Part shown: one piece after another, positions 53,716 to 58,283 of the stretch
Layout of the letters: every line of letters begins with the position of its first letter
Numbering within the stretch: the stretch's first letter is position 1
Source of the DNA: Caldifarciminota bacterium
GTDB taxonomy: Bacteria; Hydrothermota; UBA3073; JACQXS01; JAGMCI01
DNA length: 58,283 nucleotides
Reading direction: 5' to 3'
Assembly (NCBI GenBank): GCA_023129325.1
Contig: JAGMCI010000003.1
Location: 1-58,283, forward strand
Notes under the pieces: generated by a model
The model's input: the letters and a program-made list of their open reading frames with translations, nothing else
Told to the model about the DNA's origin: nothing
Databases searched by the model: none
Program-made: the position numbers and the translations under genes

Positions 53716-53740
53716 GGAGGTGAGGGGATTTGAACCCCTG
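53716..53740 (-). pseudogene. tRNA 3'-half fragment (tail 1)
   Basis: On the minus strand an intact T arm (AGGGG-TTCAAAT-CCCCT) and acceptor 3' strand CACCTCC, without the 5' half. It is nearly identical to tail 2 and to the outer 3' half of the split tRNA-Ala-like gene at 54075-54104. Confidence 0.75.
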
Positions 53741-54074
53741 TTCAAAAATCACAAATTACAAGCACCAAATCCCAAACAAATCTCAAATTACAAATTCAAA
53801 TACCAAAACAAGGTTCGTTACAATCTTTACGAAGGCTAAAGCCTTCGGCTACAAACTATTTCTATTCCGATAAATTTTAATTGGAGGTGAGGGGATTTGA
53901 ACCCCTGTTCAAAAATCACAAAAGTTTAGGATTTGAAGAATTAGAATTTAGGTATTGTTTAGGATTTAGAAATTAGGATTTCGGATTTATAGTTACAATC
54001 TTTACGAAGGCTATCCCGCACATAATTTATGTGCGGGACGGCTACAAACTATTTCTATTCCGATAAATTTTAAT
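53741..54074. repeat. Tandem units carrying tRNA tails and swapped palindromes
   Basis: Two units share GTTACAATCTTTACGAAGGCT and CTACAAACTATTTCTATTCC before each tRNA tail. In one (about 53830) the middle hairpin is GAAGGCTAAAGCCTTC. In the other (about 54000-54045) it is TATCCCGCACATAA with its complement. Tail-to-tail distances are 167 and 193 bp. No ORF. Confidence 0.75.
53882..53908 (-). pseudogene. tRNA 3'-half fragment (tail 2)
   Basis: The same T arm and acceptor strand as tail 1, with discriminator A (CACCTCCA on the minus strand). The 5' half is absent; TTTTTGAACA precedes the T arm. Confidence 0.75.
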
Positions 54075-54233
54075 TGGAGGTGAGGGGATTTGAACCTTGA
54101 CTTTCCCGCACTAATTTTTATGGAGCCGACGGGACTCGAACCCGTGACCTCCTGCGTGCAAGGCAGGCGTTCTCCCAACTGAACTACGGCCCCCTTTTTA
54201 GTGCGGGACGCTCTCCCACTGAGCTACACCCCC
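54075..54233 (-). pseudogene. Split tRNA-Ala-like gene whose anticodon arm is replaced by a palindrome carrying a whole tRNA-Ala
   Basis: Minus strand: the 5' half (54233-54209) is acceptor GGGGGTG, TA, D arm GCTC-AGTGGGA-GAGC and G. The 3' half (54104-54075) is a 5-nt variable loop, T arm and CACCTCCA. Acceptor strands pair throughout with a G3:U70 wobble, the alanine identity element. In place of the 17-nt anticodon arm stand the 11-bp inverted repeats TCCCGCACTAA/TTAGTGCGGGA, with tRNA-Ala(TGC) in the loop. The 5' side of the T stem (CAAGG) no longer pairs, so the outer gene is decaying. Confidence 0.8.
54121..54193 (-). tRNA. tRNA-Ala (TGC)
   Basis: A full 73-nt cloverleaf on the minus strand: acceptor GGGGCCG/CGGCTCC with G3:U70, D arm GTTC/GAAC, anticodon arm CCTGC-CTTGCAC-GCAGG (anticodon TGC), variable AGGTC, T arm ACGGG-TTCGAGT-CCCGT, discriminator A. 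CCA is not encoded. It lies inside the split outer tRNA. Confidence 0.96.
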
Positions 54234-54362: not shown

Positions 54363-54752
54363 TTACTCACTTTTTATCAAAATAGAGTTAAAAATCTTAA
54401 TGAATTCTGAAGATTCTTGAATAAGAAATTTGCCCTCGCTGTCATCTGTTAATTTATTAGTCTCCACAATCAATCTAAGCCAATAACGACTTTCCTTTGA
54501 TTCTTTACGGCATATTTTAATCCTCATTTTAAAATCCTTCTTGCTCAATGACTCGTTTGCTTCAATGTAGTTTGCACCCACAGAACCACTTGCTCTCACT
54601 TCCTGACTAATCAGTTCTCTATTTTCTATAGTTCTTGGCAGTTTCTTGCAAAACTCTATTACTCGCTTAGTAAACTGAAATGTCCTCTCCTCTAAATCAT
54701 AGATTTTGTTTGGAATTTCTTCATAATCTGTGTGCTGTTTAGAATTTTTCAA
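54363..54752 (-). CDS. Four-helix bundle protein (23S rRNA intervening-sequence protein family)
   Basis: This 129-residue protein of the S23/IVS four-helix family has YDLEERTFQFTKRVIEFCKKLP, ISQEVRASGSVGANYIEAN and FKMRIKICRKESKESRYWLRL. These proteins are often encoded inside 23S rRNA insertions or near rRNA genes. Here it lies beside tRNA-Ala in a cluster with 16S but no 23S. The start is a TTG whose TGA overlap joins it to the barrel gene upstream. The 54234-54362 gap holds AAATTACAAGCACC repeats and an inverted repeat. Confidence 0.9.
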   Translation of the reverse strand: MKNSKQHTDYEEIPNKIYDLEERTFQFTKRVIEFCKKLPRTIENRELISQEVRASGSVGANYIEANESLSKKDFKMRIKICRKESKESRYWLRLIVETNKLTDDSEGKFLIQESSEFIKIFNSILIKSE

Positions 54753-56116: not shown

Positions 56117-57328
56117 TTATTTCCCGAAGTGGTAAGTTGCACTTACCTGAGTAGCATTATTTGCGTTGCCGCTGAAGAACCAAGGTCCATCAAAGAAGAA
56201 ACCATTTGGAACCCAAACATCAAAAGTAAAGTTGCCTACTTCAGCAGAAGCACCAACAGCAAAGGCAAAATCAGTCCAGAAATCTTTCACGATAGTTTCC
56301 TTGTCTTTATATACCCCCATCTGGTCAATAGTCTTAGTCTTGCGTGAATAGAGGTATTTATGGAAGCTAACTCTTCCAGTAAGCCAGTTCCAAATTTGAG
56401 CCTCAGCTCCAAATACTATTCCGGGCAGTGTAGTAATAGCCATTTCAGTTTTGTCAAAGAGAGTATCCGCGGGTGTTTTGCTTTCATTATACATTGCGAT
56501 GACAGTTCCAAAGATGACAGTAGCATTTTCGACAGGATTACAAGAGAAACCAACACCAGTTCTCAAATTTGTTGATTTTAGCTCTTCAGAGGTAGTATCT
56601 CCAGGAGTTCCTGCCACAGCTTTTTCCCAGCTGGCATCTCCCATATTGTAGCTAAGTATAGGGATAAGAGTTACATCACCAAATGGGATAAAAGCTCTGG
56701 TGCGAACATTGATGAAGAACTTGCCCTGGTCATTCCAGGTTGACTTGACTGCGTTCCAACCGTAATGCTCGCAAGACCAGGTATTCTTTGAAACATTAAG
56801 AGCAAAATCAACCCAACTTCCTTCGCCAAGAGTATACTTGACTCCGGTATTTACACCAAGAATGCCCATAGATTCAGTTACTTTTAAAGTATCCCCTCTT
56901 GGATACTCCTTACTATAGGCATCGCCAGCGAATTCTAAACCAATTCCAAAATCAAGAGTTCCAAAAGTATTTCCATAAATGAACTCTAACTTGGGCTGTA
57001 GGAGCATTGACCAATCAAAAAAGGCACCTGAATTTATAATCGCTGTAGTCACAAGTGGAGGGAATTCACTCTTTTGCAGAGCCAAACCAAGATTTCCAAA
57101 TCTGGTATTAAAGAAAGCACCTAATGTTGGTGCTGCGCCTGGGTTGACATCAAGCTCGCCAAAAGCATATCCTGTATAACCATTCACCCATGCTGGGTAG
57201 GCATAAATATTGGAGTCATCAATCAAGAAATCGCCTATACCACCCATAGTTTTCACTCTTGTATCTGTAGCAAATCCAGCACTGGCAATAAAAAGTGCTG
57301 CTACTGAAAGTAATAATACTTTCTTCAC
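56117..57328 (-). CDS. Outer-membrane barrel protein, paralogue 2
   Basis: This 403-residue protein has a signal peptide (MKKVLLLSVAALFIASAGFA), then TDTRVKTMGGIGDFLIDDSNIYAYPAW, a beta-rich body and a closing ATQVSATYHFGK. It is a clear paralogue of the gene at 54749-55891. The start is GTG 57328, supported by minus-strand GGAGGAG at good spacing. It lies between tRNA-Ile and the other barrel gene in what would normally be the 16S-23S spacer. Transport role unknown. Confidence 0.85.
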   Translation of the reverse strand: MKKVLLLSVAALFIASAGFATDTRVKTMGGIGDFLIDDSNIYAYPAWVNGYTGYAFGELDVNPGAAPTLGAFFNTRFGNLGLALQKSEFPPLVTTAIINSGAFFDWSMLLQPKLEFIYGNTFGTLDFGIGLEFAGDAYSKEYPRGDTLKVTESMGILGVNTGVKYTLGEGSWVDFALNVSKNTWSCEHYGWNAVKSTWNDQGKFFINVRTRAFIPFGDVTLIPILSYNMGDASWEKAVAGTPGDTTSEELKSTNLRTGVGFSCNPVENATVIFGTVIAMYNESKTPADTLFDKTEMAITTLPGIVFGAEAQIWNWLTGRVSFHKYLYSRKTKTIDQMGVYKDKETIVKDFWTDFAFAVGASAEVGNFTFDVWVPNGFFFDGPWFFSGNANNATQVSATYHFGK

Positions 57329-57409
57329 TTCTCCTCCTTTTTTTCGGTCAGACAGTTAAATGGTTCTGCATTTCTCCACTTAACTATCTACCATTCAACT
57401 AATCTCTCC

Positions 57410-57563
57410 TGGGCCTGGGTGAAATTGAACCGCTCACCTTCCCGATGTTCGACACTGGGCCTGGGTGGACTCGAACCACCCACCTTACGGTTATCAGCCG
57501 TACGCTCTAACCACCTGAGCTACAGGCCCATCGGGACGCTCTAACCAACTGAGCTATAGGCCC
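57410..57563 (-). pseudogene. Split tRNA-Ile-like gene whose anticodon arm is replaced by a palindrome carrying a whole tRNA-Ile
   Basis: Minus strand: the 5' half (57563-57537) is acceptor GGGCCTA, TA, D arm GCTC-AGTTGGTTA-GAGC and G. The 3' half (57439-57410) is a 5-nt variable loop, T arm and CAGGCCCA. Exactly positions 27-43 are replaced by the inverted repeats TCCCGAT (57536-57530) and ATCGGGA (57446-57440), enclosing tRNA-Ile(GAT) and a 9-nt spacer. The outer T stem has mismatches, so it looks decayed. It has the same design as the tRNA-Ala locus. Confidence 0.82.
57456..57529 (-). tRNA. tRNA-Ile (GAT)
   Basis: A full 74-nt cloverleaf on the minus strand: acceptor GGGCCTG/CAGGCCC, D arm GCTC/GAGC, anticodon arm TACGG-CTGATAA-CCGTA (anticodon GAT), variable AGGTG, T arm GGTGG-TTCGAGT-CCACC, discriminator A, no encoded CCA. 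It follows 16S rRNA, the usual spacer position, but inside a split outer copy. Confidence 0.96.
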
Positions 57564-57680
57564 AAATTGTTTGTAAAAAAGCGTGCACCGCTCTCTTGGT
57601 CAAAAAATATCTTCTTCTTAATAGTATCCGCCTAAAGCGGATTGCACTTCAAACAAACTAAATAGAAAATTTGATATTAG

Positions 57681-58283
<603 letters not shown>

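Follow-up and report, generated by a model that had tools for sequence, protein, structure and literature searches.

How does an essential tRNA gene come to enclose a second, complete tRNA gene of its own isotype? The question is raised by the minus strand of the window (the whole stretch of 58,283 nucleotides of Caldifarciminota DNA analysed here) at 57563..57410, where 154 nt, read base by base, comprise an intact tRNA-Ile(GAT) enclosed by the two halves of an outer tRNA-Ile (Table 1). Nucleotides 27-43 of the outer gene are replaced by two palindrome arms and the insert between them, and the arrangement, including the TCCCGAT/ATCGGGA repeats, is base for base what the first-pass annotation of this DNA had described. 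The acceptor stem of the outer copy (GGGCCTA/CAGGCCC) is paired at six of seven positions and its T-stem has two mismatches, as judged by eye, so that the outer copy appears to be decayed. At this locus, ARAGORN and Rfam called the inner tRNA alone and left the outer one uncalled. The surrounding segment (56117-57681) holds a 16S rRNA gene, then the tRNA-Ile and then genes for outer-membrane-like proteins; Rfam found no 23S gene within the window.

A second locus of the same design had been claimed as well, and it is indeed present at 54233..54075 on the minus strand, where the plan of the Ile nest is repeated with 11-bp arms and a tRNA-Ala(TGC) inside. The outer tRNA-Ala is without nt 27-43, as is the outer tRNA-Ile, and the G3:U70 pair is found in outer and inner tRNA-Ala alike. 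Downstream of this nest, two more tRNA-Ala 3' ends (53867-53903 and 53716-53736, minus strand) lie in a repeated unit. About 130 bp upstream of it there is a gene (54363-54752, minus strand) for a 23S rRNA-intervening-sequence protein (PF05635; TIGR02436, four helix bundle), a further protein family whose name comes from insertions in RNA genes.

Table 1. Positions of the parts of the tRNA-Ile and tRNA-Ala nests and of a neighbouring hairpin in the window.
Feature	Position	Strand	Basis or remark
Outer tRNA-Ile, 5' half	57537..57563	-	27 bases: nt 1-26 plus one extra D-loop base; direct reading, D-arm motif, acceptor closure
Left palindrome arm TCCCGAT	57530..57536	-	Stands for outer tRNA-Ile from nt 27 onward; kin of the dispersed TCCCG..CGGGA hairpins
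Inner intact tRNA-Ile(GAT)	57456..57529	-	ARAGORN call; RF00005, 69.7 bits
Spacer GTGTCGAAC between inner tRNA-Ile and right arm	57447..57455	-	Direct reading
Right palindrome arm ATCGGGA, reaching nt 43 of outer tRNA-Ile	57440..57446	-	Direct reading
Outer tRNA-Ile, 3' half (nt 44-73), T-stem decayed	57410..57439	-	Direct reading
Outer tRNA-Ala, 5' half	54209..54233	-	Uninterrupted ortholog: tRNA-Ala(TGC) of G001 behind the same outer-membrane protein gene
Left arm TCCCGCACTAA	54198..54208	-	Direct reading
Inner intact tRNA-Ala(TGC)	54121..54193	-	ARAGORN and Rfam calls; acceptor stem unlike that of outer tRNA-Ala
Right arm TTAGTGCGGGA	54104..54114	-	Direct reading
Outer tRNA-Ala, 3' half	54075..54103	-	Acceptor closure 7/7 including one G-U pair
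Cargo-free dispersed hairpin, 12-bp arms, same family as nest arms	54014..54038	.	Sits within the hairpin of another repeat

Which of the two copies is used by the cell? Of the 41 tRNAs detected in this genome, which is 89% complete, one has the GAT and one the TGC anticodon, in both cases the inner copy, so the inner Ile and Ala genes are presumably the functional ones that do the decoding work. The opposite reading is a functional split tRNA, in which the outer tRNA would serve the cell once inner tRNA and hairpin had been cut from the transcript as an intron. It would suit those outer tRNAs that are complete apart from the insert, such as L201 and L211 of the loci described below. In the Ile and Ala nests of the window, the Ile nest of the nearest genome and L163 (where a second hairpin sits in the T-arm), however, the anticodon arm is missing or the T-arm is broken, and we regard splicing of the outer tRNA as highly improbable.

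The nearest genome to that of the window, G001, belongs to the same family and to a different genus. An orthologous Ile nest is found there between the 16S gene and the same outer-membrane gene, with an outer copy that is more decayed. At the Ala locus, G001 has an uninterrupted tRNA-Ala directly behind that gene. In its acceptor stem this tRNA equals the outer tRNA-Ala of the window, where two extra ORFs intervene. The reverse situation is found at tRNA-Thr(GGT), which is nested in G001; its outer acceptor (GCCCATG/CATGGGC) recurs in the tRNA-Thr that the window's genome has in uninterrupted form, and a tRNA-Trp and the next genes stand in matching order in both genomes. With such reciprocal empty sites at Ala and Thr, the older gene seems, in both directions, to be the outer tRNA, and the inner one looks like the newcomer. 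The first-pass annotation had proposed a comparison with relatives lacking the insertion, and that comparison recovered the outer tRNA whole at two syntenic loci, Ala in G001 and Thr in the window's genome. At both, the insertion interrupts its target and a relative keeps the uninterrupted allele, and both nests are without a nuclease gene. A cross-phylum origin of the inner tRNA-Thr, based on the comparison of G001 with L183 of Omnitrophota, was considered and dropped, the same type being present, apparently un-nested, within the phylum (L141).

Nests were found well beyond these loci. The DNA around each of the 41 tRNAs detected in the window's genome, and around 35 distinct tRNAs (45 matches) in G001, was read. 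The first genome has three full nests (Ile, Ala and Gly-TCC) and a Gly-CCC/Val pair between arms, accompanied by an outer Gly 5' half; the second has full nests at Thr-GGT and Arg-CCG, the decayed Ile nest, and half nests at Gly-TCC and Thr-TGT. A nest pattern, defined as an outer D-arm shortly before an intact tRNA, had nine matches in eight of the 147 genomes of the window's phylum, five of which proved real on reading, against three control matches. In Patescibacteria there were 46 matches in 42 of 379 genomes, against a single match for the reversed-pattern control; 20 of these, from 18 genomes, belong to our strict set of 40 nests, and several others were plainly spurious. The TCCCG form of the pattern, searched in the GTDB contig collection, retrieved 38 loci, with a tRNA at the match in 22, and half of the latter (11) are in the strict set: nine with names of the Patescibacteria type, one from Omnitrophota and one unassigned by name. 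Other families of the window's class, and Omnitrophota, have strict nests as well, and there are looser cases in Ignavibacteria (L184, with 12-bp arms). Two other approaches were abandoned: T-loop to T-loop spacing was too noisy as a nest detector, with matches in 131 of the 147 genomes, and a first nest list of 73 entries, many of them AT-rich false arms, was excluded from the counts.

The two loci of the window had been said to share their break points. This holds for Ile and Ala themselves, both interrupted at 27-43, but not for nests at large, in which the breaks are not always at 26/27 and 43/44 and several fall at nt 21-24 or in the anticodon loop. It had also been allowed that these might be the only two cases and might vanish on better assembly. 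As to number, nests in other families and phyla contradict this. Most of the genomes used here are fragmented draft assemblies, a circumstance that favours an assembly or binning artefact, yet the Ile nest has an ortholog in an independent genome and nests recur in many genomes with different arms. The architecture is real and recurrent; given this recurrence in independently assembled genomes, an artefact is very unlikely, with a chance close to nil.

The nests are not chance arrangements. Across all loci, the outer acceptor is closed by seven of seven Watson-Crick pairs in 31 of 89 distinct candidate nests, compared with a mean of 1.8 and a maximum of 8 in 500 shuffles with swapped 3' flanks. 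The 58 candidates short of full closure include some that are older or cut off and some that are spurious. In the strict set, nt 34-43 of the inner tRNA outscored the fragments of every other isotype as a match to the outer 3' part in 12 of the 40 nests and ranked within the top 5% in 18; in the remaining 22, many of which are without that outer part, the inner anticodon fragment fell outside the top 5%. When the insert was left out of four hand-chosen cases, L211 gave a tRNA-Val(CAC) and L201 a tRNA-Arg(TCT), both with the anticodon of the inner copy, and in L193 and L299 the rebuilt loop was one base off. An automated attempt to rebuild 36 outer tRNAs from computed arms yielded no dependable call.

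The isotypes of outer and inner tRNA agree wherever the outer identity can be judged, with no clear mismatch seen; this agreement and the nest counts include related sequences, uncorrected for phylogeny, and not every outer isotype was classed. The statement that the cargo has the isotype of its host is therefore borne out where it is readable, since retained outer anticodons equal the inner ones. In the same cases, the nest would carry a complementing tRNA of the kind known from tRNA-dependent lysogeny. Some nests are also layered. L224 and L225 are orthologous elongator-Met nests, the first with a further 5' layer, and L223, judged by arrangement alone, is another nest at apparently the same Met locus; in L170, two arm pairs surround one Thr tRNA.

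From these comparisons of sequence, we consider it very probable that nests arise when an insertion strikes an essential tRNA gene and restores its isotype. Hairpin-bounded DNA with a complete tRNA gene of the same anticodon would enter the D-arm/anticodon region of the resident gene, which would be destroyed; the inner copy would take over and the outer halves would decay as relics. We infer, accordingly in the conditional, a foreign origin of the inner tRNA and a loss of function of the outer one. The idea of a mechanism that targets the anticodon hairpin and supplies a replacement tRNA keeping the cell viable, put forward in the first-pass annotation, gains support from the reciprocal empty sites, the nests in other families and phyla, the anticodon match and the single-copy inner tRNAs.

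The accompanying analogy with integrases fits less well than one with homing endonucleases, there being no core direct repeat at the junctions read and no integrase gene in the nests of the window. Related to it is the possibility that nests are prophage relics of the tRNA-dependent lysogeny type, left when an integrase put a phage with a same-isotype tRNA into the tRNA gene and the rest was deleted. That principle is experimentally established in actinobacteriophages (PMC10865867, excerpts). The inserts of the nests are short, however (116-147 bp in the three measured), their arms are inverted, and between the halves of the window nests lie just the tRNA, the arms and the spacer, with no integrase or phage genes. 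At the junctions of L211, L201 and the window nests, reading by eye revealed no repeated att core. Viral contigs gave 34 matches to a nest pattern, with a tRNA at the match in eight and, by eye, paired arms in none. The inner Ile and Ala tRNAs have 83-87% identity to phage records among the matches listed, on which a phage origin by BLAST was rejected; for Ala, three further records lie at 95-99%. A prophage relic thus seems quite improbable to us.

What, then, are the arms? It had been claimed that both loci share a palindrome class. Both do carry it, but the class is not specific to tRNA genes: the genome contains 178 copies of TCCCG..CGGGA with at most 30 nt between the arms, compared with 30 of the reversed-pattern control, and the palindrome exceeds the control in all nine genomes of the order (22 against 13 in the lowest). 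It is a dispersed hairpin family, and in being short palindromes in high copy it resembles REPIN/RAYT systems. In the tRNA-Asp relic of the window's genome, one such hairpin stands exactly in place of nt 27-43, with no tRNA inside. Nest arms vary by lineage (TCCCGCAC, CCTGCCCGCC, CCCCGCACC, CCCCACACC). Dispersed hairpins were also seen at the tips of other hairpins (L017, L006 and window 54014-54038), as if one hairpin had inserted into another. The outer tRNA-Phe 3' halves in L155, L168 and L182, from three genomes, have a second hairpin with a common start (CGAAAAT or TGAAAAT, then TTTACCCCG). The TCCCG hairpins of the 16S gene were considered as insertions and rejected, a relative having native TTCCGACTCGTCGGAA at the first site and a diverged hairpin at the second.

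These hairpins could by themselves be the mobile unit. A RAYT-type Y1 transposase would move REP/REPIN-like palindromes, which have no protein of their own, in the form of single-stranded DNA; the loop would at times contain a tRNA, and in tRNA genes only the restoring cassettes would survive. The membership of the nest arms in the dispersed family agrees with this, as do the five hairpins seen with loops over 20 nt and no tRNA, and 13 of the 16 genomes tested from the window's class have a Y1 transposase. Outside the window's phylum, however, PF01797 was missing in 14 of 27 nest-pattern genomes (mostly Patescibacteria) versus 7 of 12 pattern-free ones, that is, with no association, absence being a soft observation in drafts; RAYT was on this ground rejected as a required enzyme. 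Moreover, pure selection predicts some arm pairs around tRNAs elsewhere, whereas by eye every pair of at least 11 bp around a tRNA comes with at least an outer tRNA 5' half, among loci partly chosen for nests. We therefore consider a cassette of this kind unlikely. Three hairpins with non-tRNA loops of 55-97 nt (L161:1505, L200:2288 and L206:2516) have a flanking 4-nt direct repeat (TGAA or TTCA) and are possibly mobile alone; a repeat of this type was absent at the tRNA nests read and at the own-genome hairpins examined.

A candidate for the driver of the insertions stands at the tRNA-Asp locus of the window's genome, which consists, in this order, of a 5' half, a hairpin replacing nt 27-43, a T-arm stub, a GIY-YIG ORF (PF01541, E 2e-15) and a whole tRNA-Asp. 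Relic and intact copy share their 5' half. A relic beside such a copy is also what would be left by local duplication or acquisition of a second same-anticodon tRNA through illegitimate recombination, with chance hairpins arising later in the redundant copy and no dedicated mechanism, and the repeated tRNA-Ala 3' ends downstream of the Ala nest point the same way. Duplication leaves unexplained, however, the full nesting between paired arms, the layering and the recurrence in many lineages, and we hold it to be rather unlikely.

Because a GIY-YIG ORF adjoins this relic, 26 genomes were searched for PF01541; all 26 were positive, UvrC included, with 175 matches. We read 90 loci around matches (30 that came with the search, plus 60 picked by score order and frame size), apart from two matches beside tRNA genes already known and some 20 further small ones. 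Among the 86 small GIY-YIG ORFs in these loci, a whole tRNA gene lies no more than 150 bp away in 36 cases and no more than 50 bp away in 27, where the tRNA density (41 in 2.0 Mb) leads to an estimated expectation below 2%; the other 50 have no whole tRNA within 150 bp. ORF and tRNA are on the same strand in all 36 cases, with the tRNA downstream in 25 and upstream in 11. A frequent layout, judged by eye, is a tRNA 5' fragment with a D- or anticodon-arm hairpin, then the GIY-YIG ORF, then a whole copy of that same tRNA, and the mirror order was also seen. For 21 of the 41 pairs of ORF and tRNA, the corresponding end of the partner tRNA was found beyond the ORF with a score above every control; in the other 20 it was not.

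GIY-YIG domain proteins are encoded at the Asp and Ser loci of the window's genome and at L299 and L339 (PF01541, E 2e-15 to 1e-17). L299 has the order outer Leu, GIY-YIG, Leu(CAA), outer Leu, so that nuclease ORF and whole tRNA-Leu(CAA) are both inside, and its outer tRNA-Leu bears hairpins close to the D arm and within both the anticodon and the T arm. At L211 a GIY-YIG ORF stands just before the Val nest, and five nest loci with such a gene within about 300 bp were noticed in all (L158, L198, L211, L237, L299). No GIY-YIG gene is found at the Ile or Ala nest of the window. G001 has several nests, yet only two PF01541 matches, one of them in a UvrC-like frame of 575 residues.

We infer from this proximity a driver of the homing type. 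The most likely candidate, at about even chances, is a small homing endonuclease of the GIY-YIG family that would cleave tRNA genes and be inserted along with a tRNA that is whole or restores function. The nuclease would cut the uninterrupted tRNA gene, and repair would copy in the nuclease gene together with enough tRNA, supplied from one side or complete, to restore function; what was left of the old gene would then gain hairpins and decay. Nests free of a nuclease, as in the window, may be later states in which its gene was lost or is supplied in trans. The hairpins at the break points may be repair scars or insertions of dispersed hairpins into the hairpins of the tRNA. Simple homing does not predict arms equal to the dispersed hairpins of the genome, which counts against it, as do the lack of a nuclease gene at the window nests, the paucity of such genes in G001 and near nests in general, the 50 small GIY-YIG ORFs with no whole tRNA close by and the 20 pairs that do not surpass every control. 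Insertion and GIY-YIG homing taken together, our best explanation, might equally well prove right or wrong. The wider proposition, that cellular tRNA genes of several phyla undergo recurrent selfish replacement by a nuclease of about 90-110 residues with its cognate-anticodon tRNA, bare nests being the fixed end state, we advance tentatively, at slightly less than even chances.

Insertions would be expected to be tolerated least of all in tRNA genes, which are essential and, in these small genomes, mostly present as one copy. If our reading is correct, an invading copy replaces an essential RNA gene in place, at some loci repeatedly, and the anticodon is the trait that is kept. tRNA genes would then be built like Russian dolls, with turnover of acceptors and arms under a preserved anticodon, and the cell would depend on the tRNA of its invader. 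This would also explain tRNA pseudo-halves, mis-called fragments and sudden changes of the tRNA body in uncultured bacteria, and would give many small GIY-YIG genes of these genomes a testable biological role.

The principle has known relatives; the form, with a tRNA inside a tRNA, paired hairpin arms, layering and cellular GIY-YIG genes inside tRNA genes, was not encountered in searches of the open-licence PMC literature. In that literature (preprints lay outside its scope) we found no earlier report of bacterial tRNA-in-tRNA nests, and to our knowledge there is none. DHE and RPE, like RHE, are palindromes inserted in or near structured RNA genes, and we know of no replacement gene in RHE, DHE or RPE insertions. 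The sources cited below are represented by excerpts, to which our comparisons extend. The nests resemble the RHE palindromic insertions of mitochondrial and bacterial RNA genes in their location in or near structured RNA genes (PMC2800124). With REP/REPIN sequences and RAYT they share short dispersed palindromes in many copies, and they differ in having a tRNA as loop cargo, seen only inside tRNA genes, and no association with Y1 transposases (PMC3116915, PMC8266576).

Closer in arrangement is the disrupted tRNA-Thr of Caldiarchaeum, where an element separates a 5' fragment of a tRNA from an entire tRNA with an identical anticodon; that case is archaeal, involves a 1.8-kb recombinase element and is tied to spliceable introns, and the excerpts of its description do not mention nesting or palindrome arms (PMC3293823). 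In the tRNA-dependent lysogeny of actinobacteriophages, a tRNA of the same isotype makes up for the destroyed tRNA gene, as has been proven for some prophages. There, a whole prophage enters with a tyrosine integrase and attP, whereas the nests have a short insert and inverted hairpin arms, and those of the window no integrase (PMC10865867).

SegB, a GIY-YIG enzyme of phages, makes its cuts within tRNA genes, close to which segB is found in a range of phages (PMC13096335); the enzyme drives inheritance or copy-number change of the tRNA region (PMC2988022, PMC13096335). Our loci are like those of T4/T6 SegB and free-standing GIY-YIG enzymes in that a small GIY-YIG gene stands beside tRNA genes of a wide range of isotypes (PMC2988022, PMC13096335). 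In these excerpts, SegB is described from phages and between tRNA genes, whereas the genes reported here belong to cellular genomes, many lie inside partly duplicated, hairpin-bearing tRNA genes, and they are joined by nests of one tRNA within another.
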